The notes under the pieces are model-generated. The model saw nothing but the letters and a program-made list of their open reading frames with translations. It had not been told where the DNA came from and ran no database searches. Position numbers and translations under genes: made by a program. Positions 16,510-32,971 of a stretch of DNA of 34,163 bases are shown here, one piece after another. The stretch covers positions 1 through 34,163 of the forward strand of contig JAPLTV010000022.1 of assembly GCA_026397955.1 (NCBI GenBank), written 5' to 3'. This DNA is from Verrucomicrobiota bacterium. GTDB lineage: Bacteria; Verrucomicrobiota; Verrucomicrobiia; Opitutales; UBA953. Within the stretch, counting starts at the first letter, position 1; each line of letters starts with the position of its first letter.

Positions 16510-17610
16510 ATGGCCAACAAGCCCGTGAAAGGATGGAAACCAGAGGCGCCCTATAACGAGCTCCCTGCCCTACCCCCGTTGACGCCGTTGCAGACCCCGG
16601 CCGTCCTCAAGGCGACGATCCGAGCTCGCGTGGCTTTAGCCGAGCTTGATCGCCTAGCCGGCAAGCTACCCAATCCGGGCATCCTCGTGCGGACCCTCCC
16701 TCTGATGGAGGCGCGTTGCTCCTCCGAGATCGAGAACATCGTGACGACGGACGACATGCTCTTCCAACGAGCCGACCTGCCAAGCGAGTCCACGCCACCC
16801 ATCGTGCGCGAGGCTAGCCGTCACGCCGAGGCATTGCTCGAAGCCTACCACGGGCTGAAGAAACTCCCGGTCTGCTCAAGGCTCGCGCAGCAGGTCTGCA
16901 CAAGGATCAAGGGACACCCCATGCCCATTCGCAAACTGCCCGGCACCGTCATCGCGAGCCGCAAGCAGGTCATGTACACTCCGCCGGTCGGCGAGTCCGT
17001 AATCCGCGGGCTCCTGGCCAATTGGGAGACCTACCTTCACTCCGACGACGACACGGATCCGCTCATCCGCATGGCTGTCGCGCATTATCAGTTCGAGGCC
17101 ATCCACCCGTTCACGGACGGCAACGGTCGCACCGGCCGCATCCTCAACAGCCTTTACCTCACGGAAGCAGGCCTCTTGGAGCAACCGATTCTCTACCTCA
17201 GCCGCTACATCCTCGCCCATCGATCAGATTATTACCGACTACTGAACGCCGTCACAAGCCACGAGGCCTGGGAAGAGTGGGTGCTCTATATCCTTAATGG
17301 TGTCGTCGAAGTCGCCACCTGGACCGCAGGCAAGGTGCGGGAAATCCACACCCTCTTGGAATCAACGCAGAAGCAAATCGTCAAGAAGTGCCCCGACCTA
17401 CCCTTGGACGAGATCATGCGGGCCATCTTCGAGCAGCCCTACTGCCGGATTCGCCACCTCGTGGACACCGGCATCGCGAAGCGTGAAACCGCGTCGCTCT
17501 ATCTCGTCCAGCTGACCAAGGCGGGCGTGCTCACCGAAATCAAGCAGGGGCGCGATAAACTCTTCCTTAATCACCGTCTCCTCCACCTACTGACCAACCC
17601 CGAAGGCTGA
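16510..17610 (+). CDS. Fic family protein, class II, with C-terminal winged helix
   Basis: A 366-residue Fic enzyme, a family that transfers AMP from ATP to protein hydroxyls. The catalytic motif HPFTDGNGRTGR is complete (199-210), with a leading YQFEAI. An N-terminal inhibitory motif of the (S/T)xxxE(G/N) type, SSEIEN (71-76), marks it as class II, so self-inhibited until Glu75 is displaced. The last ~80 residues (from ~290) look like a winged helix (FEQPYCRIRHLVDTGIAKRETASLYLVQLTKAGVL). Start ATG 16510 follows an operator-like repeat cluster. It is only moderately similar to the second Fic protein at 18049-19191, so they are not a recent duplication. Confidence 0.92.
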   Translation: MANKPVKGWKPEAPYNELPALPPLTPLQTPAVLKATIRARVALAELDRLAGKLPNPGILVRTLPLMEARCSSEIENIVTTDDMLFQRADLPSESTPPIVREASRHAEALLEAYHGLKKLPVCSRLAQQVCTRIKGHPMPIRKLPGTVIASRKQVMYTPPVGESVIRGLLANWETYLHSDDDTDPLIRMAVAHYQFEAIHPFTDGNGRTGRILNSLYLTEAGLLEQPILYLSRYILAHRSDYYRLLNAVTSHEAWEEWVLYILNGVVEVATWTAGKVREIHTLLESTQKQIVKKCPDLPLDEIMRAIFEQPYCRIRHLVDTGIAKRETASLYLVQLTKAGVLTEIKQGRDKLFLNHRLLHLLTNPEG

Positions 17611-18048: not shown

Positions 18049-19191
18049 TCAGCCCTCGTTAAGGATTTCGATATAGCGTTGGTAGACGAAGACACGGTTA
18101 CGTGCCTTGCCGGTAGTTTCTCGCAGGATGCCGTTGTCGACGAGTGCCTGGACAGCTCGGGTCGCGGCCGGGAAGTTGGTATCTAAGGCAGCAGCTACGC
18201 CTTTGATGTCGAGGATGGGGCGCTTCCGGAAACAGCCTAGGGCGCCGGCCGCCTTGCCGCCGGATCGGCCAAGCTTCTGGACCTTGGCTAGGTCCTCTTG
18301 GTAGCAGTCAGCGAGCTTCCGAGCCGTCAGGGATGCGGAATGGGCCGTCTCGGCTACTCCCTTGAGGAAGAAGTCGACCCAGGCCTCCCAGTCCCCCTCG
18401 GCCCGCACCTTGTCGAGCAGGCGATAATACTCCGCCTTGTGGGCCTTAAGATAGAGGCTGAGGTAGAGCAGCGGACGTGAGAGCTTTCCGGACTGCTGGA
18501 GCAGCAGCGCGATGATTAGGCGACCGATTCGTCCGTTACCGTCGAGGAAGGGGTGGATGGACTCGAACTGCACATGGGCGAGCGCCGCGCGGACGAGCGT
18601 GGGCATGCCGTCCTCGGCGTTGATAAACTTATCTAGATCGCCCATGCATGGCAGCACCTCGTGCGGAGGCGGCGGGACGTAGTGCGCCTGGCTGGGCCGC
18701 TGGCCGCCAATCCAGTTCTGGGATCGACGGAACTCGCCGGGCTCCTTCTCGGACCCCCTGCCCTTCGCCATCAACTTCTCGTGCATCTCGCGGATGAGAC
18801 GGCCGCTGAGGGGAATATCCTTCAGGCGCGCCATCCCATACTCCATCGCGGCCACGTAGCTCGAGACCTCCTTTACATCATCGATCGGCACCTGCAGGTC
18901 ATCCAGCTCGAAGAGCATGAGGTCGGACAGAGTCGACTGGGTACCCTCGATCTGGGAGGAGAGCACCGCCTCCTTGCGCACATAGGCATACAGGAAGAGG
19001 TCCATCTCAGGGAGATGGAGCGCCGCCCCGTCCAGTTTGGCCAAGGCGGCCTCTGCCTGCTCCAGCAGACGCCGGCGAGCAGCCGTCATCTCGATGCCGG
19101 GGCTAGGTGGCAGCGGGGTGGGCACAAAAGCCCTAACCTGCTCCCCCTGGCAGGCAGTAACCTCGAATCGGCCGGTCGGACCTCGCTTCAT
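18049..19191 (-). CDS. Fic family protein, class II (second)
   Basis: A 380-residue Fic protein with Fic_N domain. Catalytic motif HPFLDGNGRIGR is at 213-224; the inhibitory helix is SSQIEGTQ (78-85), the standard class II form with its autoinhibitory Glu82. The flap region before the core includes RRSQNWIGGQRPSQAHYVPPPP (~155-176). The C-terminal ~85 residues resemble a winged helix (RKRPILDIKGVAAALDTNFPAATRAVQALVDNGILRETTGKARNRVFVYQ). It lies between two attachment-like repeats and has repeated GTTAAT-type sites upstream. Possible roles include modification of gyrase or other targets, or a toxin-like function; no antitoxin partner is needed because inhibition is built in. Confidence 0.92.
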   Translation of the reverse strand: MKRGPTGRFEVTACQGEQVRAFVPTPLPPSPGIEMTAARRRLLEQAEAALAKLDGAALHLPEMDLFLYAYVRKEAVLSSQIEGTQSTLSDLMLFELDDLQVPIDDVKEVSSYVAAMEYGMARLKDIPLSGRLIREMHEKLMAKGRGSEKEPGEFRRSQNWIGGQRPSQAHYVPPPPHEVLPCMGDLDKFINAEDGMPTLVRAALAHVQFESIHPFLDGNGRIGRLIIALLLQQSGKLSRPLLYLSLYLKAHKAEYYRLLDKVRAEGDWEAWVDFFLKGVAETAHSASLTARKLADCYQEDLAKVQKLGRSGGKAAGALGCFRKRPILDIKGVAAALDTNFPAATRAVQALVDNGILRETTGKARNRVFVYQRYIEILNEG

Positions 19192-20516: not shown

Positions 20517-21023
20517 TCAAAGCGACAAGGTTTCACGCAATCGATCTCGCGCGGAAGCGACGCGATGTTCGACCGCCTTGGCAGTCAGCCCGAGGGCTTC
20601 CCCGGCCTCCTGATGCGACAGTCCTGAATAGGCGGTTAGGATCAATGGCTCGCGCAAACCTTCAGGCAGACGCTGGACTGCGGCACGCACCATGGCGGCG
20701 CGCTCATCGGCATCGGCGGTGTCCTCGACCGAACCCTCGGGAATCTCCGGAGTCAGGCCGGTAAACCTCGCCAGCCGTCGCAGCCAGCTGCGCCGCCGGT
20801 TCCTGGCCAGGTTGATCGCGATCCCGAAGACCCAGGTGGAAACGTTTCCACCGGTGAAACGCTCGGAGGTCCGCCATGCCGTCGCGAAGGCCTCGGCGGC
20901 GACCTCCTCCGCATCGGCCGCATCGGGAAGCAGGCGATGGAGGTAGCCGCGGATGCGCGGGTTCAGCTCATCGAAGAGCACCCGCCATCCAGCCTGGTCG
21001 TCCTTTGCAGGCAGGCCGTTCAT
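20517..21023 (-). CDS. ECF RNA polymerase sigma factor, CnrH-like
   Basis: A 168-residue ECF sigma-70 factor. Region 2 is at about 20-80 (RGYLHRLLPDAADAEEVAAEAFATAW, then STWVFGIAINLARNRRR) and region 4 at ~108-165 (RLPEGLREPLILTAYSGLSHQEAGEALGLTAKAVEHRVASARDRLRETL). It is the third gene of an overlapping minus-strand trio (start overlaps the upstream stop by 4 bp): a small membrane protein, a periplasmic sensor, then the sigma factor, the same order and sizes as cnrY-cnrX-cnrH of Cupriavidus. The likely regulon is the neighbouring metal genes (inference). Confidence 0.9.
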   Translation of the reverse strand: MNGLPAKDDQAGWRVLFDELNPRIRGYLHRLLPDAADAEEVAAEAFATAWRTSERFTGGNVSTWVFGIAINLARNRRRSWLRRLARFTGLTPEIPEGSVEDTADADERAAMVRAAVQRLPEGLREPLILTAYSGLSHQEAGEALGLTAKAVEHRVASARDRLRETLSL

Positions 21024-21469
21024 CGGGCCTTGTGGTGTCCGTCGACGCCGGGAGCGCCCTCATGGGAGAGGGCTTCGACCTGCGGCAGGATGAGCGCGAC
21101 GTAGGCTTTTCCCTTCTCGGGCGGCATGCAGCCGGCAATCGCGAGCACGTGCTCGCGACGGGAACGCTCGCAGCGTCCGAGAGCGGCCTCGAGGCCGGCC
21201 TTGGACTCGGGGCCGGGCTTCGCCTCCATGGCGAGCTTGGCCTGCCTCACCGCCTCGCAGTGAACCTCGCACTCCTTCTCGAACTCGCCCTGGAGCGCGG
21301 CGATCCGGCCGATGGCGGCGTCATCGAGCCCGAACTCGGCGCGCAGCCACGCGGCCTCCGAACGCTGCTCGCACGCCGCGGCCATCCTGAAGTCCCGAAT
21401 CGCCCACCAACCTGCGAACCCGGCCAGGAGCGAGAGGACCAACACGGTGATCAGGAGCCGCCCCCTCAT
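21020..21469 (-). CDS. Periplasmic heavy-metal sensor, CnrX-like, Cys-rich
   Basis: A 149-residue protein with an N-terminal membrane anchor (LLITVLVLSLLAGFAGWWAI) and a helical periplasmic domain, the same size and layout as CnrX (148 residues) and related to the ZraP/CpxP family. The potential metal ligands are mainly Cys: C33, C67, H70, C71, C100, H107, C114, plus a C-terminal DGHHKAR. In CnrX the site is His/Glu/Met, so a thiol-preferring metal is suggested. The ATG at 21469 overlaps the stop of the upstream gene; a longer frame to 21670 runs through that gene and is rejected. Confidence 0.72.
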   Translation of the reverse strand: MRGRLLITVLVLSLLAGFAGWWAIRDFRMAAACEQRSEAAWLRAEFGLDDAAIGRIAALQGEFEKECEVHCEAVRQAKLAMEAKPGPESKAGLEAALGRCERSRREHVLAIAGCMPPEKGKAYVALILPQVEALSHEGAPGVDGHHKAR

Positions 21470-21705
21470 CGGGCGGAAGCCTCCACGATTGAGCGCGCAT
21501 GAAGCTTGGCCATCTGCTGCGAGTCCTGGTTGTTCGAGCGCCAGCCAGCCAGTCCGCCGACCAAGAAGACCGCCATGGCGACGGCCGAGACGCGAAGCAC
21601 CGGACTGGGCCTGGGCCCCCTGAGGATGTCGCGGGAAAAGTCCTCGCAACGGCGGGGGGAGACCTGCCAAGCGGACATCAACTCGTCGATGGGTTTGTTG
21701 CTCAT
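21466..21705 (-). CDS. Small single-span membrane protein, CnrY-like anti-sigma candidate
   Basis: A 79-residue protein: N-terminal ~35 residues probably cytoplasmic (MSNKPIDELMSAWQVSPRRCEDFSRDIL), one transmembrane span (VLRVSAVAMAVFLVGGLAGW, ~36-55), and a short periplasmic tail. CnrY, the anti-sigma factor that holds CnrH at the membrane, has the same topology and similar size (95 residues) and is also the first gene. I assign it by topology and gene order rather than sequence identity. Overlaps the next gene by 4 bp. The start at 21705 is 101 bp from the divergent multicopper oxidase. Confidence 0.6.
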   Translation of the reverse strand: MSNKPIDELMSAWQVSPRRCEDFSRDILRGPRPSPVLRVSAVAMAVFLVGGLAGWRSNNQDSQQMAKLHARSIVEASAR

Positions 21706-21806: not shown

Positions 21807-23930
21807 ATGCGGATCAACACGGTGCAGCCAATCAAGCGGGTGTCGGCGTGGGGTCTCCTCATGCTCGCGACCTTACTGGCCGCCCCTGCGCAGGCCTGCG
21901 AGATCTGCCGCAAGGCCTACTTCGACGCGATGGAAGCGGCCCCCAAGGCCTCGGCCCTTCACCCGGAAGCCCGCGTGGTCGAATACCGCCTCTCCATCTC
22001 CGAGCAGACCTTGAGTCCGGCAGGACAGCCGACGCAGGCCCTGACCATCAACGGGGGCACGCCAGGCCCCGTGCTGCGCTTCAGGGAAGGCGACGTGGCC
22101 CGCATCACCGTGGTCAACGGCCTGGCAGACGACTCGACGTCCCTCCACTGGCACGGGCTACTCGTCCCCAACCTGCAGGACGGAGTGCCGGTCGTCACCA
22201 CACCCGTGATCGGCCCCGGGCAGTCGCGCACCTTCGAGTTCCTGATCCGCCAGAACGGCACGTACTGGTACCACAGCCACACTGGCCACCAGGAACAGCG
22301 CGGCGTCTACGGCGCGATCGTGATCGAACCGAAGGAGGTCGAAAAGCTGGCCGACCACGACCAGGTCGTCATCCTTGGCGATTGGACGAACGAGCACCCG
22401 GCCGAGGTCCAGCGCTCGCTGCTGCGCGGAAGCGACTGGTACTCCTACCGCAAGGGCACGGCGCAGTCGCTCATCGGCGCCTACCAGGCCGGCAAGCTCA
22501 AGGAATACCTCGATGGCCAGAAGTCCCTGGTTCCCCCGATGGACCTCTCCGACGTCGCCTACGACGCCTTCCTGATGAACGGACAGCGCCGCCTCCAGCT
22601 TCCCGGCAAGCCGGGCGAGAAGGTGCGCGTGCGGCTGATCAACGCAGGGGCAGCCAGCTACTTCTACCTCGATGCCGCTGCGGGCCCGCTCCGGATCATC
22701 TCCGCGGACGGCCAGGACGTGGTCCCCTTCGAGCAGAAGCGCCTGCTGATCGGGCCTGCCGAGACTTACGACGTGCTTCTCACCGTGCCTGCCTCGGGCT
22801 CCTGGGAACTCCGCTCCACCGCGCAGGACGGCAGCGGGTCGGTCTCGGCCTGGATCGGCGAAGGGTCACCGCATGAGGCGGCCCCTCCGCCCAAGCCTGA
22901 CCGCTATGGCATGAGCGCCTACCTGTCCTCCATCCTCGACCAGATCGACCCCGAGCCCGGCGCCCAGGAACCTGAGCGACCGATCTCGCCCTACGCCAAG
23001 CTGCGCGCCGCCAAGCCCCACGCCGTCGCCGCCTCCCACCGGGAGCTGACGCTCAAGCTGACAGGCGACATGATCCGCTACGAGTGGAGCTTCGACGGGC
23101 TCGACCCCCGCGAGGCCGAGGCGATCAAGGTCAAGGAAGGCGAGACGATCCGGCTGCGCCTGGTGAACAACAGCATGATGCATCACCCGATCCATTTCCA
23201 CGGCCACTTCTTCCGCCTGGTGGACGCAGCCGACAAGGACCCAGCGACCTCCCCGCTGAAGCACACGGTCGACGTCCCCCCGATGAGCGTGAGGACGATC
23301 GAGTTCACGGCCGACGAGGGCCAGGGAGACTGGCTGATCCACTGCCACCTGCTCTACCATCACATTACGGGCATGGTGCGCACGATCCGCGTGACCGGTG
23401 CCGACGGCGCGGAGCCGCCGCATCCCGCGGCCACGCACGCCATGGCGACGACCTACGCCTGGGGCCAGGCCGCCTTCACCAACGCTTCCGCGACGGGCTA
23501 CGCGACAATCCAGTCCGGACGCGACAACCTCTACGTCAGGTGGGAGGAGGGCCTGCGCCGCGGCGACGGTCATGAGCGGGAGATCAGCTACCAGCGCTAC
23601 CTAGACACGCGCCTGTCGCTCGTCGCCGGCTACCGCTTCGGCAACCTGGACGGCGACCGGGACGGACCCTTCGCCGGCGCAGCCTTCCGCCTGCCCTACT
23701 TCGTCGACCTAGGCCTGACCCAGCAGTCCGGAGGGGAAACCCGGGCGGCCTTGGCCAAGAGCCTGCAGCTGACCGACCGGCTCTCGCTCGACCTCTCCTA
23801 CCGCTACGGCAGGCGCACCCACGCGTCCACCGCGGCGGACCTCCGCTACCTCCTCACCAAGGACCTCTCGCTCACCGCCGGCTATAGTTCCGACTTCGGG
23901 GCCGGCGCCGGCATCCTCATCCGCTTCTGA
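21807..23930 (+). CDS. Multicopper oxidase (CopA-like) fused to a C-terminal beta-barrel
   Basis: A 707-residue exported protein. Signal peptide 1-30 (LLMLATLLAAPAQA), then CEIC at 31-34. All four copper motifs of a three-domain multicopper oxidase are present: HWHG (114-117), HSHTGH (156-161), HPIHFHGH (460-467) and HCHLLYHHITGM (512-523, type 1 Cys513 and Met523). The oxidase would convert Cu(I) to Cu(II) or act on another periplasmic substrate. Residues ~548-707 are not oxidase: they are alternating amphipathic strands (RLSLVAGYRFGN, YFVDLGLTQQSG, LSLDLSYRYGRR, LSLTAGYSSDFG) ending in a terminal Phe, as in outer-membrane barrels and CopB. A start at GTG 21840 is also possible. Divergent from the CnrYXH-like trio. 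Confidence 0.88.
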   Translation: MRINTVQPIKRVSAWGLLMLATLLAAPAQACEICRKAYFDAMEAAPKASALHPEARVVEYRLSISEQTLSPAGQPTQALTINGGTPGPVLRFREGDVARITVVNGLADDSTSLHWHGLLVPNLQDGVPVVTTPVIGPGQSRTFEFLIRQNGTYWYHSHTGHQEQRGVYGAIVIEPKEVEKLADHDQVVILGDWTNEHPAEVQRSLLRGSDWYSYRKGTAQSLIGAYQAGKLKEYLDGQKSLVPPMDLSDVAYDAFLMNGQRRLQLPGKPGEKVRVRLINAGAASYFYLDAAAGPLRIISADGQDVVPFEQKRLLIGPAETYDVLLTVPASGSWELRSTAQDGSGSVSAWIGEGSPHEAAPPPKPDRYGMSAYLSSILDQIDPEPGAQEPERPISPYAKLRAAKPHAVAASHRELTLKLTGDMIRYEWSFDGLDPREAEAIKVKEGETIRLRLVNNSMMHHPIHFHGHFFRLVDAADKDPATSPLKHTVDVPPMSVRTIEFTADEGQGDWLIHCHLLYHHITGMVRTIRVTGADGAEPPHPAATHAMATTYAWGQAAFTNASATGYATIQSGRDNLYVRWEEGLRRGDGHEREISYQRYLDTRLSLVAGYRFGNLDGDRDGPFAGAAFRLPYFVDLGLTQQSGGETRAALAKSLQLTDRLSLDLSYRYGRRTHASTAADLRYLLTKDLSLTAGYSSDFGAGAGILIRF

Positions 23931-23951: not shown

Positions 23952-24611
23952 ATGAAACACGCCATACTCGCCATAATGCTCTCAGCCTGCGGCCTGATCG
24001 CCGCCGACAAGCCCGCCGACGCGAAGCCCTACCCCCTCGACAAGTGCATTGTCTCCGACGAGAAGCTCGGCGCCGAGGGCAAGCCCGTCGTCTTCGTCCA
24101 CGAGGGACAGGAGATCAAGCTCTGCTGCCAGGACTGCCGCAAGGACTTCGACGCCAACCCGGCCAAGTACCTGGCCAAGCTGCCCAAGGCCGACTCCAAG
24201 CCGGCCGGCGCGGAGCACAAGATGTGCGCCTGCTGCGCCGACGCCGCCAAGCCGGCGGAAGCGGCGAAGCCCCATGAGCACGGTGACAAGGCCGGCATGA
24301 AGTGCCCGGATTGCTCCTGCTGCTGCAAGGACCACGGAGCCAAGGCCGACGGCCACGACCATGACGCGAAGCCGGCGGACGCCGCCAAGCCCCACGAGCA
24401 CGGCGACAAGGCGACGAGCGCCGACAAGGCCGAGGCCGCCAAGCCCTACCCTCTGAAGAACTGCATCGTCTCCGACAACGACCTAGACTCGATGGGCGAA
24501 CAGGCTTCGTTCGTCTACCAAGGCCAAACGATCAAGGTTTGCTGCAAGCCCTGCATCGCGAAGTTCGAGAAGAATCCAGCCAAGTACCTTAAGAAGCTCG
24601 AAGGCAAATAA
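23952..24611 (+). CDS. Exported metal-binding protein with two YHS/TRASH-like repeats
   Basis: A 219-residue exported protein (signal ~1-18). Two copies of the same ~52-residue unit, at 26-77 and 165-216: YPLxxCIVSD...F.(H/Y)xGQxIKxCCxxCxxxFxxNPAKYLxKL, which is the layout of YHS or TRASH metal-binding domains. The linker (78-164) is Ala/Lys-rich with CACC (92-95), CPDCSCCC (118-125) and two AKPHEHGDK units (105-113 and 145-153), so it can bind many soft or borderline metal ions. It follows the copper oxidase by 21 bp and is probably co-transcribed; a periplasmic metal buffer or chaperone is likely. Confidence 0.8.
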   Translation: MKHAILAIMLSACGLIAADKPADAKPYPLDKCIVSDEKLGAEGKPVVFVHEGQEIKLCCQDCRKDFDANPAKYLAKLPKADSKPAGAEHKMCACCADAAKPAEAAKPHEHGDKAGMKCPDCSCCCKDHGAKADGHDHDAKPADAAKPHEHGDKATSADKAEAAKPYPLKNCIVSDNDLDSMGEQASFVYQGQTIKVCCKPCIAKFEKNPAKYLKKLEGK

Positions 24612-24702: not shown

Positions 24703-24984
24703 ATGAACGATGCTCCGACCTCCAAACAGTGCGACCCGGCGTGTGACATGACGGGCGGTGCTTATTCTCCTTTGCGACATAGGCACGAGGGAACGACCTA
24801 CTATTTCTGTAACCCGAGCTGCCTGCGGAAATTCCAGGCGGCTCCGGACAAGAATCTGCGTGCTCCCGACCAGGCCGACGGTGACAATACTTGCTGCACG
24901 GTCGAGTCGACGGACGGACTGACCTACTCCTGCCAGAAGCGAACCAACTGTAACATTACGGTTGGCCCAACAAACCGTCCCTGA
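24703..24984 (+). CDS. Small YHS-domain protein
   Basis: A 93-residue protein without signal peptide. Residues ~8-55 fit the YHS domain: CDPACDMTGG...HEGTTYYFCNPSCLRKFQAAPDKNL (the usual form is DPVCGM...YxGxxYYFCxxxCxxxFxxxPxxY). Four more Cys follow (CCTVESTDGLTYSCQKRTNC). YHS domains accompany copper and heavy-metal ATPases and oxidases. It lies after the terminator of the oxidase operon and could have its own promoter. Probably a cytosolic metal chaperone or sensor-like binder. Confidence 0.7.
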   Translation: MNDAPTSKQCDPACDMTGGAYSPLRHRHEGTTYYFCNPSCLRKFQAAPDKNLRAPDQADGDNTCCTVESTDGLTYSCQKRTNCNITVGPTNRP

Positions 24985-25044: not shown

Positions 25045-25461
25045 TCAGTGGGCGCAAGTACAGCCATACTCCTGACGCTTGCACTCTCCGCAGAGGGCGG
25101 TGTTCAAAGTCAGACGGAAGTTCGTCGGTTTGGCGTCCGCCGCGGCGCGGACTTGAACCACGATGGCCGCCGGCTCCTTGGCTTGCAGCGGTTCCTTGGT
25201 GATGAATCCATTCGGATGGGGCTCAAGGATGACATCCTTACCGTCGACCTTAACGACGACGATGCGGTCGCCTCTGGGCACGGGCTTGCCGGCGGCGTCG
25301 GCGAAGGTGACCGTGGCCTTGCGGTCCGACTGGATCACGAATTGCGCGCGCAGTCCGGGTGCCTCCAGACGGCGACCAGGCTGGACGTCGGTAGCCGGCT
25401 TGGCGGGCTCGGCGGCGATCAGGGCGCCGATTGAAAACAGGGAGAGAAGGAGGATTTTCAT
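25045..25461 (-). CDS. Exported small protein of the RND operon, Cys-rich C-terminus
   Basis: A 138-residue exported protein (signal MKILLLSLFSIGALIAA). The middle resembles a small beta domain (LRAQFVIQSDRKATVTFADAAGKPVPRGDRIVVVKVDGKDVILEPHPNGFIT), and the end is CGECKRQEYGCTCAH, a likely metal-binding tail. It is the last gene of the minus-strand efflux operon; its start overlaps the stop of the RND pump gene by 4 bp. Similar small proteins occur near czc/cus pumps. A role as periplasmic metal donor to the pump is inferred. Confidence 0.65.
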   Translation of the reverse strand: MKILLLSLFSIGALIAAEPAKPATDVQPGRRLEAPGLRAQFVIQSDRKATVTFADAAGKPVPRGDRIVVVKVDGKDVILEPHPNGFITKEPLQAKEPAAIVVQVRAAADAKPTNFRLTLNTALCGECKRQEYGCTCAH

Positions 25462-28400
25462 GGTTGGGTGGTTGTTGGGGTGGGAGAAGAGGAGAAACGC
25501 GCCTCGACCCAGTCATAAAGGACAGGGAGAAGCAGGAGCGTCAGGGCAGTGGAAGTGAAGATTCCCCCGATGACGACGGTCGCCAGCGGCTGCTGCACCT
25601 CGGCCCCTGGACCGGTCGAAAGGGCCATGGGCACGAAGCCCAAAGAAGCGACGAGCGCGGTGATGAGCTTGGGACGCAGCCGGGTGACGGTGCCGTCGAC
25701 CACCGCGAGGCGGAGCGGGCGGCCTTCCGCCCGCAGCTGGTTGATGAAGCTGATCAGCATGATGCCATTGAGGACCGCGATGCCCGACACCGCGATGAAG
25801 CCGATACCGGCCGAGATTGTGAAGGGCATGCCTCGCAGCCAGAGTGCAAGCACGCCGCCTATAGCCGCGAGCGGCACGCAGGTGAAGACTAGTGCCGCCT
25901 GACGAAAACTGCCAAAGCCGGCATAGATGAGGAGCAGGATCAGCCCAAGCGCCGCGGGGACGACCAGCGTCAGGCGCTCGCGCGCCCGCTGCAGGTTCTC
26001 GAACTGGCCACCGAACTCCCAATAGACGCCGCCGACCGGCTTGACCTCGGACTTGAGTTTGGCCTCGGCTTCGCGCACAAAGCCCTCGGTGTCACGGCCG
26101 CGGACGTTGATGAGGATGGCCAGACGGCGGCGCGCGTCCTCGCGGGTGATGACGCCCGGACGTTCGACCAGTTTGACGTCAGCCACCTTGGAGAGCGCGA
26201 CCATCGTACCGGAGCCATCCTCGGCAGAGACCGGGAGATCGCCGATCTGCGAAGGCGAAGTACTTTCGGCGCCAGGCAGGCGAACGACGACCTCCATGGG
26301 ACGCCCCGAAGCGGGCAGCTGCCCCGCCCTCGCGCCGCCCAAGGCGGTCGAGACGATGTCGTTGAGCTCCTCCGCATGCAGGTTACGACGGACCAGTTGG
26401 TCTCGCTTTGGAACGATGTCGACCGAGGGCAATAAGCCTGAGGCCTCGAACACGACGTCTCCGCCGCCGGGAATCTTACGGAGCACGGCCACCGCCTGCT
26501 CGGCCACGGCTTCCATATTGGAGAGTTCGTCGCCGAAGATCTTCAGCGAAAGATCGGCTCGGGAGCCGGCCATGATTTCATTGAAACGCAACTGGATCGG
26601 CTGGGAGAACATCGTGGTCTGCCCGGGGACGGTCCGCTCCAGGAGTTCGGACATGAGTTCGACGAGCCTTGCCTTATTGATGGGCGAACCACCTTCACGG
26701 CGCCACGTGTCGCGGGGTTTCAACTTCACATAACTATCCGCGACGTTCGGCCCCATCGGATCGCTGGCGATCTCGGCGGTACCGATGCGCGCGAAGACAT
26801 GGTCGACCTCCGGAAACTTGGCACTCAGGAGGATCTCAGTGCGCTTCTGCAGGTCCATCGAGGAGGCCAGATCGAGGCTGGAGGCTCGGACGAACTGGAT
26901 GCTGATGGAACCTTCGTCGAGCTGCGGGATGAAATCGGCCCCGAGACGCGTGTAGCCGACGGCGGCTGCGAGGGCCGCGAGCGAAGTGGCGACGACGGCC
27001 GCGGTTCGATGGGCGAAGCACCATCCAAGCATCGCCGAGAAGACCGACTTGAGACGGCGGATCAGGCCACCTTCCTCGGCATGACCTTCAGCCCGAAGCC
27101 AGAAAGAAGCCAGGGCAGGCATGACGGTCAGGGCGACGAGCGCGGAAGCCGCCAAGGCGACCACGACGGCCGCGGCCATGGGCTTGAACATCTTCCCTTC
27201 GATACCCTCGAGGGCGAAGATCGGCACATAGACCAAGGTGATCACGGTCACGCCAAGGAACATCGGGCCGGCGACCTCGCCGGCGGCGGTCGACAGCTCG
27301 GCAGTACGCTCATCCTCGGTCAGGGGTCGCCCGAGGGCCCGGACACGCTCCTCAAGCCGTCGCAGGAAGTTCTCCACCATCACCACGGAACCGTCAACGA
27401 TGAGTCCGAAATCGATGGCGCCCAGACTCATCAGATTGGCGCTGGCCTTGGAAACGGCCATGCCGGTGAGCAGGAGAAGGAACGAGAGGGGGATCGCCAA
27501 GGCGACGAGCAAAGCGGCCCGCCAATGCCCCAGCAACACCAGCAGGACGACCACGACGATCAACGCCCCTTCGAAGAGGTTCGTCTCGACGGTCCGGATG
27601 GTCGCGCCGACGAGGTCGGAGCGGTCGTAGAGCACGGTAAGCTTCACGCCCTCCGGCAGGTGGGTACCGATGGCGGCGAGCTTCTCGACCGCGCGTTTCG
27701 AGACTTCGCGGGAGTTCTCACCGGCTAGCATGATGGCGGCGCCGACGACGGCCTCCTGCCCGTCGACGGTGGCCGCACCCATGCGGGAGGCGTTGCCGAC
27801 CGAAACACGGGCGACGTCACCCACGGTCACGGCGGGACCGAGGCCGGCGGGGCGAAGCGGTATACCAGCGATATCCTGGGCGGTCCGCACGCGAGTGTCA
27901 GCGCGGACCGTGAAGGCCTCGCCGCCGAGCGTGACGACACCGCCCCCGGCGTTCTCGGTGTTACGACGGACGGCCCTGAGCAGTTCTGACATGGGTACGC
28001 CTGACTTGGCAAGCTTGGCGAGGTCGGGTTCGACGAGCATCTGGCGCTCGTGCCCGCCGATGACGTTGACGTCCGCCAGTCCCGGCGTGGAACGGAGCGC
28101 CGGGCGCACGCGCGTGTCATGCAACAGGCGCAAATCACGTAGGCGCGTGGACTCGTCGGCCGGCGCCTTGGCATCGGCGGCGTAGCCGATCGAGTAATAG
28201 ACGATTTCCCCGAGTCCGGTGCTGATCGGCGCCATCACGGGTACGGCACCCGGCGGCAGGTTGCCGGAGGCCTGCCCGATACGTTCGGTCACGAGCTGGC
28301 GGGCGCGGAAGATATCGGTACCATCCGCAAAGATGAGCGTGACCTGCGAGAGCCCGGTCTTGGAGAGCGAACGGAACTCGACCAAGCCCGGTAGGCCTGA

Positions 28401-28619
28401 GAGCTCGGATTCGAGCGGGATGGTGACGCGCGACTCCGCCTCGTCGGCGGCGTAGGAAGGCAAGGCGGTGTTGATCTGCACCTGCGGGCCGGTGATGTCG
28501 GGCATGGCATCGATCGGGACGCGCGTGGCGGACCAGGCTCCGAGCAGGCAGAGCAACAGGGCGCAGGTGAGCACGACCGCGCGGCGGCGGATGGACCAGC
28601 GAGCGAGGGCTGCGATCAT
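25458..28619 (-). CDS. CzcA-type heavy-metal RND efflux pump
   Basis: A 1053-residue inner-membrane RND transporter of the heavy-metal (HME) family, a proton antiporter that drives metal through the envelope. Two repeated halves, each with six membrane spans, are visible. In TM4 the proton-relay residues of divalent-ion pumps are present: IDFGLIVDGSVVMVEN with D403, D409 and E416, matching D402/D408/E415 of CzcA; the Cu/Ag pump CusA has a different TM4. So Zn/Co/Cd/Ni is favoured over Cu(I). The gene sits between the short adaptor (1 bp apart) and the small exported protein (4-bp overlap). Length and start are normal for the family. Confidence 0.92.
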   Translation of the reverse strand: MIAALARWSIRRRAVVLTCALLLCLLGAWSATRVPIDAMPDITGPQVQINTALPSYAADEAESRVTIPLESELSGLPGLVEFRSLSKTGLSQVTLIFADGTDIFRARQLVTERIGQASGNLPPGAVPVMAPISTGLGEIVYYSIGYAADAKAPADESTRLRDLRLLHDTRVRPALRSTPGLADVNVIGGHERQMLVEPDLAKLAKSGVPMSELLRAVRRNTENAGGGVVTLGGEAFTVRADTRVRTAQDIAGIPLRPAGLGPAVTVGDVARVSVGNASRMGAATVDGQEAVVGAAIMLAGENSREVSKRAVEKLAAIGTHLPEGVKLTVLYDRSDLVGATIRTVETNLFEGALIVVVVLLVLLGHWRAALLVALAIPLSFLLLLTGMAVSKASANLMSLGAIDFGLIVDGSVVMVENFLRRLEERVRALGRPLTEDERTAELSTAAGEVAGPMFLGVTVITLVYVPIFALEGIEGKMFKPMAAAVVVALAASALVALTVMPALASFWLRAEGHAEEGGLIRRLKSVFSAMLGWCFAHRTAAVVATSLAALAAAVGYTRLGADFIPQLDEGSISIQFVRASSLDLASSMDLQKRTEILLSAKFPEVDHVFARIGTAEIASDPMGPNVADSYVKLKPRDTWRREGGSPINKARLVELMSELLERTVPGQTTMFSQPIQLRFNEIMAGSRADLSLKIFGDELSNMEAVAEQAVAVLRKIPGGGDVVFEASGLLPSVDIVPKRDQLVRRNLHAEELNDIVSTALGGARAGQLPASGRPMEVVVRLPGAESTSPSQIGDLPVSAEDGSGTMVALSKVADVKLVERPGVITREDARRRLAILINVRGRDTEGFVREAEAKLKSEVKPVGGVYWEFGGQFENLQRARERLTLVVPAALGLILLLIYAGFGSFRQAALVFTCVPLAAIGGVLALWLRGMPFTISAGIGFIAVSGIAVLNGIMLISFINQLRAEGRPLRLAVVDGTVTRLRPKLITALVASLGFVPMALSTGPGAEVQQPLATVVIGGIFTSTALTLLLLPVLYDWVEARFSSSPTPTTTQP

Positions 28620-28620
28620 C

Positions 28621-29055
28621 TCAGTGGCCGTCGGTGCAGCCGACGCCTCCCTTGATGGCCTGGAGTTCTGCGAGCCAGAGGCCCCACACGCCCGCGATGG
28701 CGATCACGTCGCCCTCGAGCAGACCGTCGGCGACCTGGATCGAGCCGTCAGACTCGACGCCTGGCTTCACCTCGGTGCGCAACCAGCGCTGGCCGTTCTG
28801 GACGAATACGAAGGCCCCCTCGGAGTTCCGGAGCAACGCATCGACCGGAACCAGGACGCGATCGGCCTTGGCCTGGGCCTCGGCCTTGCGCAGGCCGATG
28901 AACTCGGCCGCATCTGGGGTCAGCAGCAGGCCCTGCCCTTTCTTGAACTCGGCGGCCTTGGCCGGAGGAACGGCACCCTCTATTTGACCTGAAGTTGCCT
29001 GCTTGCCGCAGCCAGCCAACGCGACGACCAGGAGAATGGAACTGAAGGTCTTCAT
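28621..29055 (-). CDS. Minimal RND periplasmic adaptor-like lipoprotein
   Basis: A 144-residue lipoprotein (lipobox LAGC, Cys16). Residues ~65-140 match only the membrane-proximal C-terminal part of CzcB/CusB-type adaptors: VPVDALLRNSEGAFVFVQNG.RWLRTEVKPGVESDGSIQVADGLLEGDVIAIAGVWGLWLAEL. The lipoyl and alpha-hairpin domains that reach to TolC, about 200-250 residues, are absent. There is no sign of a frameshift: the gene is an intact frame, overlapped by TolC's stop and followed 1 bp later by the pump. The GCTDGH tail could bind metal. Whether it can bridge pump and TolC is doubtful. Confidence 0.75.
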   Translation of the reverse strand: MKTFSSILLVVALAGCGKQATSGQIEGAVPPAKAAEFKKGQGLLLTPDAAEFIGLRKAEAQAKADRVLVPVDALLRNSEGAFVFVQNGQRWLRTEVKPGVESDGSIQVADGLLEGDVIAIAGVWGLWLAELQAIKGGVGCTDGH

Positions 29056-30323
29056 CGGGACGCGACGGGATTGAAGGGAACGCCGCTGAGTTCGCGCAGG
29101 CGGAAGCCGGCCTCGACGGCCTGCTCCTGAATGAGCAACGCGGAGTCGACAGCCTCGAGATAACCAGCCTGGGCATCCATGAAGAGCTGCAGCGACAAGG
29201 CGCCGGCACGGAAGTGAGACTCGGCGAGTTTGGCTGCTTCCGAAAAACGCACCGCCGGATCGTCCTTATGCATGCGCAGCTGGTCGACCTTGGAGGCATA
29301 GGAAAGCCAGGTCTGTCCGAGGTCCTTCTCGACGTCACGCCAGGCCGCGGAAATGGCGGACTTGGACTGCCGGCGGCGCTCATTGGCCGAACGCTCGGCG
29401 GCGCTCGAGCGACCGCTCACCGGCAGCGGGATGTCGAACCGGAGGCCCACAATGGTCTCACGCCCGCCGACGCGGTCCTGCGAGACGTACGGACCGGCCG
29501 TGAAACCCGGCACGCTGTCCGAGCGTGCGAGGTCGGACTGCAGGCTGAGCTGCTCGGACTCGAGCACGTGCATCCGGTAGGAGAAATTGCCCTGCTGGGC
29601 GGCGGCCAGGAGCTCCTCGAGCTTAGGGGCATCCTTGAGCGCGAGCACCGGGGCCTTGACGGTGAGCGGAGCGAGCGAAGGCGTGCCGCGCAGCTGGTTC
29701 ATCTCCAGCAAGGCCTGCTGCAGCGCCAGGCGCGCCTCCTCGGCACGGCGGCGGGCGACGACCTCGGCGGCCTCGACCGACCGCAGTTCGATGGTCGGGG
29801 CGGGACCGGAAGGATCGCGTCCGACCAAGGCCTTGCGTAGGCCGGCGAAACGCGCGGCGACTTCTTCGCAAGCCTGGGCGCGGACTTGGGCGCGGGACAG
29901 GCGATAGGCGAGCACTGCGGCCTTCGCCTCCAGCGCTTGCTCGAAACGACCCAGGCCGAGTTTGGCGGCCTCGATCTGGCGGTCGGCGATGGCCCGACGG
30001 AGGCGCAGCCGCTCCGGCCATTCGAAAGTCTGGCTCAGCGAAGCCGTCCAGACCTGACCTTCATCCAGAAAAGCCCCACCCGCATCACGCAGACGCTTAC
30101 GGCCGACCTCAAGGGACAGCACCGGATCCGGGTTGGATGAGGCAGCCGAACCAGACTCGCGTTCGGCAGCCAAGGCGGCGACATAGGCCTGGCGCTCCGG
30201 GTTGGACTCGACCGCCTGGCGGACCAGTTCGGCGACATCGACCGGAGCGGGCGATGGAGTTTCGGCCGCACAGAGCAGGCCAGGAAGAAGGAGAATCGGA
30301 GATAGGAATCGGAAAATGGTCAT
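29052..30323 (-). CDS. TolC/CusC-family outer-membrane efflux protein
   Basis: A 423-residue exported protein (signal MTIFRFLSPILLLPGLLCAAE) of the outer-membrane factor family. It has the long helical arms and repeated halves of TolC, e.g. DVAELVRQAVESNPERQAYVAALAAERES and DEGQVWTASLSQTFEWPERLRLRRAIADRQIEAAK, and ESEQLSLQSDLARSDSVPGFTAGPYVSQDRVGGRETIVGLRFDIPLP. It would form the outer-membrane channel for the RND pump. Its stop overlaps the start of the short adaptor gene. The signal peptide fixes the start at 30323, although the frame is open to 30389. Confidence 0.9.
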   Translation of the reverse strand: MTIFRFLSPILLLPGLLCAAETPSPAPVDVAELVRQAVESNPERQAYVAALAAERESGSAASSNPDPVLSLEVGRKRLRDAGGAFLDEGQVWTASLSQTFEWPERLRLRRAIADRQIEAAKLGLGRFEQALEAKAAVLAYRLSRAQVRAQACEEVAARFAGLRKALVGRDPSGPAPTIELRSVEAAEVVARRRAEEARLALQQALLEMNQLRGTPSLAPLTVKAPVLALKDAPKLEELLAAAQQGNFSYRMHVLESEQLSLQSDLARSDSVPGFTAGPYVSQDRVGGRETIVGLRFDIPLPVSGRSSAAERSANERRRQSKSAISAAWRDVEKDLGQTWLSYASKVDQLRMHKDDPAVRFSEAAKLAESHFRAGALSLQLFMDAQAGYLEAVDSALLIQEQAVEAGFRLRELSGVPFNPVASR

Positions 30324-30390
30324 GGATTTGGATGCATGCGGGCGCGTGCCCAGGTTGCCCCCTTGGACGACGGCATAATGATACGTCACT

Positions 30391-30952: not shown

Positions 30953-32971
30953 ATGGAACCCCTGACACCACCAAGCAAGAACAGTGTGGACGACGGCGGC
31001 TGTAGGAATTCCTCCGCGGGAACAAAGAATACCGGCAGCTGCGGATGCCATGACAATGAACTATTCGAAACGAACTGGCACCAGACGGGGAAAGGCCGGC
31101 TTGCCATCTCCATGGCGCTGCTCATCTGCGTCTCATGGGCCGTCGAGCACTTCACCCCGGGCGCAGGCAAATGGCCTTTCGTCGGGGCCAGCCTGATCGG
31201 ACTGGCGCCGGTGGCGAGGACCGCCTTCGCCGCGCTGCGCGAAGGGCGTCCCTTCACGATTGAAAGCCTGATGACGATAGCGGGGACCGGCGCGCTGTTC
31301 ATCGGAGCCGCGGAAGAGGCGGCCGTCGTTGTCTTCCTGTTCGCCGTGGGCGAGCTGCTGGAGGGCGTGGCCGCCGGCAAGGCGCGGCAAGGCATTCGCG
31401 CGCTCGCCGACCTGGTCCCCAAGACGGCCAGACTACTCGAGGATGGCGTCCCGCGGGAAGTGCCTGCGGCGAACCTGCTCGTGGGCCAGCTGGTCCTGGT
31501 GCGTCCGGGCGACCGCATACCCTCGGACGGCGAGATTGTCGAAGGATCTTCAGGCATCGACGAAAGCCCCGTGACAGGGGAAAGCGTGCCCAAGACGAAA
31601 GGCCCGGGTGACCCTGTCTTCGCCGGATCGATCAACACCGAGGCTGCCCTCAAGGTCCGGGTCACCAAGGCCCAGGAGGACAACACGATCGCCCGCATCA
31701 TCCGTCTGGTCGAGGAGGCCGAGGCCACGCGTGCGCCGACCGAACGCTTCATCGCGCGGTTCAGCCGATGGTACATGCCGGCCATCGTGGCGTCAGCGGC
31801 CCTGCTGATGGCGGTGCCTGCCCTCATATTTGGACAGCCTTGGGAGACTTGGACCTACCGGGGCCTCTCGCTGCTCCTGATCGGATGCCCCTGCGCCCTG
31901 GTCATCTCCGTGCCCGCCGCGATCGCCGCGGCGCTATCCGTCGGTGCCCGCCGCGGGCTCCTCATGAAAGGAGGGGCTGTCATCGAGGCCGCCGCAAAAG
32001 TGTCGCATGTGGCCTTCGACAAGACCGGCACGCTGACCTACGGGCGCCCCGTCGTGACCGACGTGGTCACATTCGGCGAGACCAGCGAAGAACAAGTGCT
32101 CGCCGTGGCGGCCGCCATAGAGACGAGTTCGAGCCACCCCTTGGCCGTCGCGATCCTGATGCGGGCCAGAGCGGCGAAGGTCTCGCCGGCCCATTCAAGC
32201 AACGCCAAGGTGATTGCCGGCATAGGGGCGACGGCCACCGTCACCGGCACCCCCGCCTGGATAACCTCCCCCCGCCATGCGGCGAAGAACGGAGGCCTGA
32301 GCGAGGAGGGCCTGCGCAAGGCGGCCAGTCTCGAAGCGGAGGGTAAGACAGCCGTGGCGGTGTTCCGGGACAACGGCCCCTTGGGGCTCATCGCGGTGAG
32401 GGACGAGCCCCGTAGGGACGCCCGCGAGGCGGTGCGGCAACTGAAATCAATGGGAGTTTCCTCCGTGGTGCTGACAGGAGACAACCCGCGCACCACGGCC
32501 GCCATCGCCAGCGGCTTAGGCCTCGAATTCCGAGCCGACATGATGCCCGCGGACAAGTCTAAGGCCATCCGCGAGATGGCTGAGCAGGGCGGCGTCATGA
32601 TGGTGGGCGACGGGATCAACGACGCTCCGGCCCTTAAGCAGGCGAACGTCGGCGTGGCGATGGGGTCTGGCACCGACGTCGCGCTCGAGACGGCCGACAT
32701 CGCGATCCTCCGGGACCGGGTGACGGATGTCGCGACCCTGATTCGACTGTCCCGCGCGACTATGACGAACATCCGCCAGAACATCGCGTTGGCCTTCGGT
32801 TTCAAGCTCGTCTTCCTCGCGACCACGGTGTTGGGCCTGACAGGACTCTGGGCCGCCATCCTCGCCGACACTGGTGCGACCATCCTCGTGACACTCAACG
32901 CGCTTCGGCTTCTACGGCTCAACCCCGAGGGCGATCAGATTAAAAATTCGAAGCCTGCCATCCCACAATAG
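30953..32971 (+). CDS. Zn/Cd/Pb-type P1B heavy-metal ATPase
   Basis: A 672-residue heavy-metal P-type ATPase that would export divalent ions from the cytosol. Key sites: TGES (208-211), CPC metal motif (312-314), DKTGT phosphorylation site (Asp356), SSSHPLA with His395, and GDGINDAP (552-559). The last membrane segments read FGFKLVFLATTVLGLTGLW and LADTGATILVTLNALRLLR, with the Lys and Asp that mark ZntA/CadA-type Zn/Cd/Pb pumps. There is no N-terminal HMA domain; instead a short tail has Cys17, Cys30, Cys32, His33 (CGCH). It is divergent from the RND operon. Confidence 0.93.
   Translation: MEPLTPPSKNSVDDGGCRNSSAGTKNTGSCGCHDNELFETNWHQTGKGRLAISMALLICVSWAVEHFTPGAGKWPFVGASLIGLAPVARTAFAALREGRPFTIESLMTIAGTGALFIGAAEEAAVVVFLFAVGELLEGVAAGKARQGIRALADLVPKTARLLEDGVPREVPAANLLVGQLVLVRPGDRIPSDGEIVEGSSGIDESPVTGESVPKTKGPGDPVFAGSINTEAALKVRVTKAQEDNTIARIIRLVEEAEATRAPTERFIARFSRWYMPAIVASAALLMAVPALIFGQPWETWTYRGLSLLLIGCPCALVISVPAAIAAALSVGARRGLLMKGGAVIEAAAKVSHVAFDKTGTLTYGRPVVTDVVTFGETSEEQVLAVAAAIETSSSHPLAVAILMRARAAKVSPAHSSNAKVIAGIGATATVTGTPAWITSPRHAAKNGGLSEEGLRKAASLEAEGKTAVAVFRDNGPLGLIAVRDEPRRDAREAVRQLKSMGVSSVVLTGDNPRTTAAIASGLGLEFRADMMPADKSKAIREMAEQGGVMMVGDGINDAPALKQANVGVAMGSGTDVALETADIAILRDRVTDVATLIRLSRATMTNIRQNIALAFGFKLVFLATTVLGLTGLWAAILADTGATILVTLNALRLLRLNPEGDQIKNSKPAIPQ

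Follow-up and report, generated by a model that had tools for sequence, protein, structure and literature searches.

A single-chain CopA-type multicopper oxidase and CopB-like outer-membrane barrel of Verrucomicrobiota and other phyla

The closest described counterpart of the protein reported here is the PcoA/PcoB (CopA/CopB) pair of Proteobacteria, in which an oxidase and an outer-membrane barrel are encoded by two adjacent genes. PcoB consists of 12 antiparallel strands with both ends in the periplasm (PMC9210255). In Caulobacter, PcoA and PcoB are described as interdependent, and a disordered arm of PcoB stabilizes PcoA and may dock it (PMC12509749). The direction in which copper passes CopB is disputed, as uptake is argued in PMC9210255 and efflux together with a stabilizing PcoA-PcoB contact in PMC12509749. 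A natural fusion of two Pco components is YcnJ of Bacillus subtilis, but its parts are PcoC and PcoD, i.e., a periplasmic copper protein and an inner-membrane protein, and the fusion has been taken as a sign that these two work together (PMC9210255). The nearest precedent is G2EDV6 of Bizionia argentinensis (Bacteroidota), a PcoA-like oxidase whose residues 611-809 were termed porin-like with some similarity to PcoB; in the accessible portion of that source the mention is one sentence, without barrel structure, family or phylogeny (PMC11213822). Among open-access titles and abstract openings, nothing on such a fusion was found beyond this sentence of 2024 (PMC11213822, portion accessible). The layout is not wholly unreported, and it is common in Bacteroidota and Verrucomicrobiota yet hardly described.

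The window analysed is a DNA stretch of 34,163 nucleotides from a Verrucomicrobiota bacterium (contig JAPLTV010000022.1). One of its genes encodes a single chain that comprises an oxidase and a CopB-like outer-membrane barrel. The initial annotation had suggested such a one-chain arrangement, and it is borne out by one intact frame (ATG start, 707 codons and no internal stop in the translation) and by recurrence of the join across several phyla. The gene and its parts, all on the forward strand, are as follows.

21807..23930 (+), fused multicopper oxidase/outer-membrane barrel gene, 707 amino acids (frame, Pfam, structure models)
21807..21896 (+), putative Sec-type signal peptide, residues 1-30; signal and cleavage site predicted from the sequence
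21996..23396 (+), three-domain CopA/PcoA-type multicopper oxidase, residues 64-530 (PF07732, PF00394, PF07731; TIGR01480; full-chain model)
23397..23450 (+), linker, about residues 531-548, between the oxidase domains and the predicted strands
23451..23927 (+), predicted 12-stranded CopB/PcoB-like outer-membrane beta-barrel, residues 549-707, with C-terminal Phe (models, profiles, Foldseek)

The fused protein shares with PcoA/PcoB a CopA-type three-domain oxidase, a homologous 12-stranded outer-membrane barrel and metal-resistance surroundings. Unlike the two-gene pair, it is one chain, usually has no twin-arginine (Tat) motif, possesses a shorter barrel in which the gate residues are partly kept and has a short linker where PcoB has its N-terminal arm. 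We propose that it is probably a periplasmic Cu(I) oxidase anchored in the outer membrane, with its own barrel as the CopB partner, i.e., a single-chain CopA-CopB (PcoA-PcoB). The chain would be exported by the Sec system and its C-terminal barrel would insert into the outer membrane, while the oxidase would fold and take up copper on what is presumably the periplasmic side, beneath its own barrel. There it would turn periplasmic Cu(I) into the less toxic Cu(II), an activity expected from its family features, and the barrel may serve as a CopB-type copper conduit beside the oxidation site, both the passage of copper and its direction being presumed.

The oxidase was initially annotated as a complete three-domain enzyme, and Pfam agrees: PF07732, PF00394 and PF07731 match residues 64-530 far above their cut-offs. 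All four copper-ligand motifs that we would expect of a multicopper oxidase with three domains are found in the protein, namely HWHG, HSHTGH, HPIHFHGH and HCHLLYHHITGM. The family features of CopA/PcoA are present, namely three cupredoxin domains, four His-rich copper motifs, and the Cys and Met. TIGR01480 (CopA) is the top NCBIfam match, with 361.1 bits over two stretches; this score is under the cut-off of 478.95, so the oxidase is a relative of CopA and not a member by that rule. The loop preceding the third oxidase domain contains a single Met in 58 residues, and in one alignment the same loop contains 13-23 Met in 25 Bacteroidota proteins and 1-2 in seven close relatives. Substrate handling may therefore differ in this Verrucomicrobiota branch. 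Both the TIGR01480 score and the Met-poor loop weigh against the single-chain CopA-CopB proposed above.

Two observations concern the N-termini of fused proteins. In the window protein, a CxxC motif directly follows the signal peptide (21897-21908; mature N-terminus CEICRKAY), and such motifs (CEICR, CELCR, CDDCK) occur in many fused proteins of Verrucomicrobiota; judged by eye, this is no standard lipobox. All seven proteins L076 and L079-L083 (Chryseobacterium) and L041 (Pedobacter antarcticus) carry one or two extra N-terminal C(P/V)MHPE..CPKCGM motifs and are three-part fusions of a metal-binding domain, an oxidase and a barrel; PF19335 was confirmed by Pfam in both proteins scanned, L076 and L041.

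The barrel half of the window protein carries no Pfam or NCBIfam name above cut-off, and fused proteins on plasmids are mostly annotated as 'multicopper oxidase domain-containing protein'. It had been described from the sequence as about 160 residues of amphipathic strands from residue 545 to a terminal Phe. An AlphaFold2 model of the tail, built from an alignment of 65 tails (the window and related loci), predicts 12 strands at residues 549-706, which upholds this description apart from a small shift of the starting point, the first predicted strand beginning at about 549. From tail residue 41 onward, blocks of ten residues have mean pLDDT values of 83-96; the full-chain model (pTM 0.88) has the same 12 strands, and the linker of the tail model contains no predicted lumen helix. 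Along the strands, hydrophobic and polar positions alternate with a mean difference of 2.9 Kyte-Doolittle units over 48 sequences, a value that none of 2000 column permutations reached, and the inward face of the barrel is polar (mean Kyte-Doolittle -1.4). The model is that of a transmembrane barrel and not of a soluble beta domain, the fold that would have contradicted the initial annotation. In a Foldseek search of 350,542 PDB chains, the first match was PcoB (7pge; E 1.7e-6, TM 0.59 by both lengths, 18% identity) and the runner-up was a porin (E 6.2e-5), so that the tail is predicted to be a 12-stranded barrel with the fold of PcoB. The C-terminal residue is Tyr in 74 and Phe in 28 of the 103 aligned fused sequences, L017 being truncated 2 bases from a contig end; nine of 112 loci (partial, unfused or duplicate) were excluded from this alignment.

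At the level of single sequences, the kinship to CopB is faint. A search with the CopB profile PF05275 had been recommended, and the window tail alone gave no match to it at E up to 1 (cut-off 27 bits), although eight of 48 related tails match weakly (E up to 0.1, best 3.2e-4; 20.3 bits for the tail from genome G086) and a clear match emerges between profiles. Pfam matched the window tail itself to a TonB barrel with 23 bits and to TamB with 15 bits, under the respective cut-offs of 27 and 22.4. Other models matched in the 48 tails were OMP_b-brl (eight tails, best E 1.9e-5), DUF481 (five, 6.5e-7) and the TonB barrel (five, 1.4e-5). With such mixed matches, CopB does not stand out when sequences are taken one by one, and the best E-value of DUF481 for a single tail (6.5e-7) is better than that of CopB (3.2e-4), which counts against the proposed reading.

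The comparison of profiles by hhalign is more discriminating. The tail profile matched that of CopB, built from 8 sequences, at a probability of 96 (E 2e-9). With a trimmed 48-row tail profile the probabilities were 96 for CopB, 87 for DUF481 (15 sequences) and 43 for OMP_b-brl (14 sequences), and with a 65-row profile DUF481 drops to 23 while CopB holds 93. The three families reversed gave at most 7.2, the tail against its own reverse 33, and CopB against OMP_b-brl and against DUF481 0.6 each. A generic barrel signal is real, given the value of 87 and the best single-tail E of DUF481; a generic rather than CopB-like barrel was nevertheless rejected, since CopB outranks both OMP_b-brl and DUF481 in the profile comparison. 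Homology to CopB is thus indicated above both barrel controls. Thirteen of 24 positions conserved in both families share their residue, including G, P, R and T-x-R-L, and shifted alignments share 0-3, which favours the fitted register.

The residues of the PcoB gate are partly kept. The position of PcoB Q179 is Ala626 in the window protein and Gln in 17 of 48 tails (15 of 25 from Bacteroidota), and that of E187 is Asp634 in the window protein and Asp or Glu in 15 of 48. The latter position is acidic in 11 of 20 Verrucomicrobiota and 2 of 25 Bacteroidota tails, and 22 of 25 Bacteroidota tails have an acid two residues further on. The PcoB numbering used here is offset by 81 on the structure chain and fits the residues named in the accessible part of PMC9210255. 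With the gate kept only in part, the ion path may differ from that of PcoB. That different gate residues are kept in the two phyla, and that the tail of about 160 residues is shorter than the PcoB barrel (198 in 7pge), would suit a CopB-derived barrel that no longer conducts copper and just holds the oxidase at the outer membrane. We regard this as unlikely, as the inward face is polar and several Gly, Pro and Arg positions together with T-x-R-L are common with CopB. Moreover, PF05275 has no match elsewhere in the genome of the window, which leaves no separate CopB to do the conducting, with the proviso that this genome is 94% complete and a separate CopB could be missing from the assembly.

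A related question is on which side of the membrane the oxidase resides. Both ends of PcoB are periplasmic; the even strand number and this topology suggest, provided that the topology is shared, that the oxidase faces the periplasm, as the initial annotation had supposed. Type V autotransporters consist of an N-terminal domain followed by a C-terminal 12-stranded barrel. The fused protein has the same order of parts and the same strand number, and an oxidase sent outward in this manner would act on the cell surface. Among the 48 tails, the autotransporter barrel model PF03797 matches one (E 0.04) and the inverse autotransporter model two (best E 0.0087); PF03797 does not match the window tail in Pfam. 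Such display seems very improbable to us, because CopB/PcoB is the best fold and profile match among those tested, the linker has no predicted lumen helix and multicopper oxidases are compact, unlike known passengers; barrel family, passenger type and linker all set the fused protein apart from type V autotransporters.

The proposed single-chain CopA-CopB is not confined to one genome. Among the best 80 loci from 84,980 species genomes there are nine Verrucomicrobiota relatives at 68-85% identity, one Acidobacteriota, one Geobacter MAG, one Pseudobdellovibrionaceae MAG and 68 loci with Bacteroidota names. Plasmids yielded 3819 matching records, 24 of which cover at least 80% of the query; these 24 best rows (93-99% covered) are from Bacteroidota except for one record of Ilyobacter (Fusobacteriota). 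Cultured carriers of the fused gene include Spirosoma linguale DSM 74, with two plasmid copies, and Chitinophaga pinensis (L039). On the Fusobacteriota record, the Ilyobacter polytropus plasmid pILYOP02 (L166, typed conjugative), the fused gene adjoins annotated periplasmic heavy metal sensors. The fused layout was found, among the matches listed, in the nine Verrucomicrobiota relatives, in dozens of Bacteroidota and in single Acidobacteriota, Geobacter-MAG and Fusobacteriota-plasmid records. The initial annotation had recommended a search of other Verrucomicrobiota for the same fusion; beyond what it foresaw, the fusion is widespread and not special to this genome. Although the genome of the window is fragmented (126 contigs) and unfused neighbours occur in the same order, a frameshift or misassembly that joined adjacent copA and copB genes has a negligible probability and was rejected, since nine close relatives as well as isolates and plasmids of other phyla have the same fused frame and the fused sequences form their own clade.

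Oxidases matching at E 1e-20 or better occur in 40 of 288 Verrucomicrobiota genomes, and a barrel-only profile gave 32 matches in 28 of the 288. Twenty-seven of these matches are uninterrupted and lie in open frames of at least 709 residues. The other five are a barrel with an internal stop (G113), one split over two frames (contig C31 of G086, two rows), a broken one (G268) and, close to the beginning of a contig, a fragment of 77 residues (G259). With 27 matches in long frames and the other five interrupted or fragmentary, no intact stand-alone barrel of the fused type was found among the 288 genomes. Copies of the fused gene broken by a frame break or a stop are located at 3449-5460 of contig C31 in G086, 288-1766 of C66 in G268 and 2245677-2247806 of C1 in G113. 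PF05275 exceeds its cut-off in seven of the 288 genomes, each with an oxidase nearby on the same contig that stops 19-59 residues past the last copper motif and is therefore unfused; four of these seven pairs were inspected individually. None of the 288 genomes has both a fused-type barrel (28 genomes) and a separate CopB (seven). The fused gene is missing from those searched genomes that are most closely related to that of the window (one from its genus and two from its family) and is thus probably accessory here.

In a tree of the oxidase part only, 56 fused and 13 unfused rows are split by one branch with 100/100 support, present in 200/200 bootstrap trees. This tree was drawn from 122 sequences after 23 near copies were removed; the unfused L121 and L167 were lost to the end-motif rule, and fused rows were omitted as well, three that were long or odd and 25 others, as was the outgroup. 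An earlier, quicker tree that had 98 rows and included a distant outgroup showed the same split, the unfused side being supported at 97 and the fused side at only 43. Verrucomicrobiota are found on both sides, unfused ones with plasmid-borne proteobacterial copies and fused ones with Bacteroidota and others. The simplest reading would be that the fusion originated once and then spread between phyla, although in a tree without a firm root gain and loss look alike.

The two groups also differ in their signal peptides. CueO and CutO oxidases carry Tat signals (PMC8456105). A loosely defined twin-arginine motif at the signal peptide was found in 10 of 15 unfused CopA and 5 of 107 fused proteins and, within Verrucomicrobiota, in 5 of 7 unfused and 4 of 34 fused ones; the match in L031 precedes the likely start, and for L159 and about 12 of the 107 fused rows the signal stretch is evidently misplaced. 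Fisher tests of this contrast gave 5e-8 overall and 0.003 in Verrucomicrobiota, values that overstate independence because the proteins fall into two clades and the unfused rows include near copies (L155, L157 and L158). Outer-membrane beta-barrels are exported unfolded via Sec. Since the barrel must travel unfolded, a fused protein is expected not to use Tat, and the low Tat rate agrees with Sec export as a single evolutionary contrast, not many.

Where PcoB has an arm, the fused protein has the linker, and the covalent link could permanently do the job of the PcoB arm. A His-rich linker as replacement of the disordered arm was borne out in part only: His accounts for 4.6% of linkers and 2.2% of barrels in the 48 tails, mainly due to Verrucomicrobiota, while Bacteroidota linkers mostly have 0 or 1 His. 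The linker of the window protein has two, and those of some Verrucomicrobiota relatives have more.

The genes surrounding the fused gene are the following.

20517..21023 (-), gene for an ECF sigma factor, oriented divergently from the oxidase gene (Pfam)
21020..21670 (-), periplasmic protein with a membrane anchor, its gene overlapping that of the sigma factor; no family match
23952..24611 (+), protein with two YHS (TRASH-like) domains and a middle part rich in His and Cys, 21 bases past the end of the fused gene (Pfam)
24703..24984 (+), second small YHS protein, 93 amino acids (Pfam 27.3 bits, under the cut-off of 30.3)
25458..28619 (-), CusA/CzcA family heavy-metal RND pump (Pfam; TIGR00914, 1121.5 bits)
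28621..29055 (-), lipoprotein-like piece of 144 amino acids that matches only the C-terminal part of CzcB/SilB-type adaptors and has no Pfam match
29052..30389 (-), TolC-like outer membrane efflux protein (PF02321)
30953..32971 (+), heavy-metal P1B-type ATPase, for which Zn/Cd models score above Cu models (profile scores)

That metal genes surround the fused gene favours the single-chain CopA-CopB proposed above, and that the adjoining P-type ATPase looks like a Zn/Cd rather than a Cu transporter speaks against it. A relative of the double-YHS protein, sought with its two YHS halves in frames of less than 450 residues, follows the fused gene on its strand at a distance of no more than 0.5 kb in all 24 fetched fused loci of this branch (L004-L012, L084-L097, L099). 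It was found in none of L171-L180 (0/10; another Verrucomicrobiota genus, whose oxidases group with Bacteroidota), L181 (0/1) and L013-L083 (0/71, two without downstream sequence). The double-YHS protein is a candidate periplasmic copper partner. The ECF sigma gene and the overlapping membrane protein gene are kept in L004 and L005, and the membrane protein is possibly a metal sensor of the CnrX kind. The 144-residue adaptor stub is also kept in L004 and L005 (69% and 92% identity); it would make an odd adaptor for a tripartite pump. Two Fic-domain genes lie near each other on opposite strands at 16510-17610 (+) and 18049-19191 (-).

More tentatively, and with less confidence than in the single-chain CopA-CopB itself, we suggest that the oxidase may cap its own CopB channel from the periplasmic side and pass Cu(II) straight into it; such an enzyme-gated conduit may have arisen once and spread across Bacteroidota and Verrucomicrobiota, replacing the two-gene copAB.

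Whether CopA and CopB form one working unit and in which direction CopB conducts are unsettled, and the single chain bears on the former: that the CopA and CopB parts occur naturally and widely as one chain is independent evidence of their acting side by side. The chain is also a fixed 1:1 object for work on structure and flux, and it leads to the prediction that export would shift from Tat to Sec when oxidase and barrel are joined.
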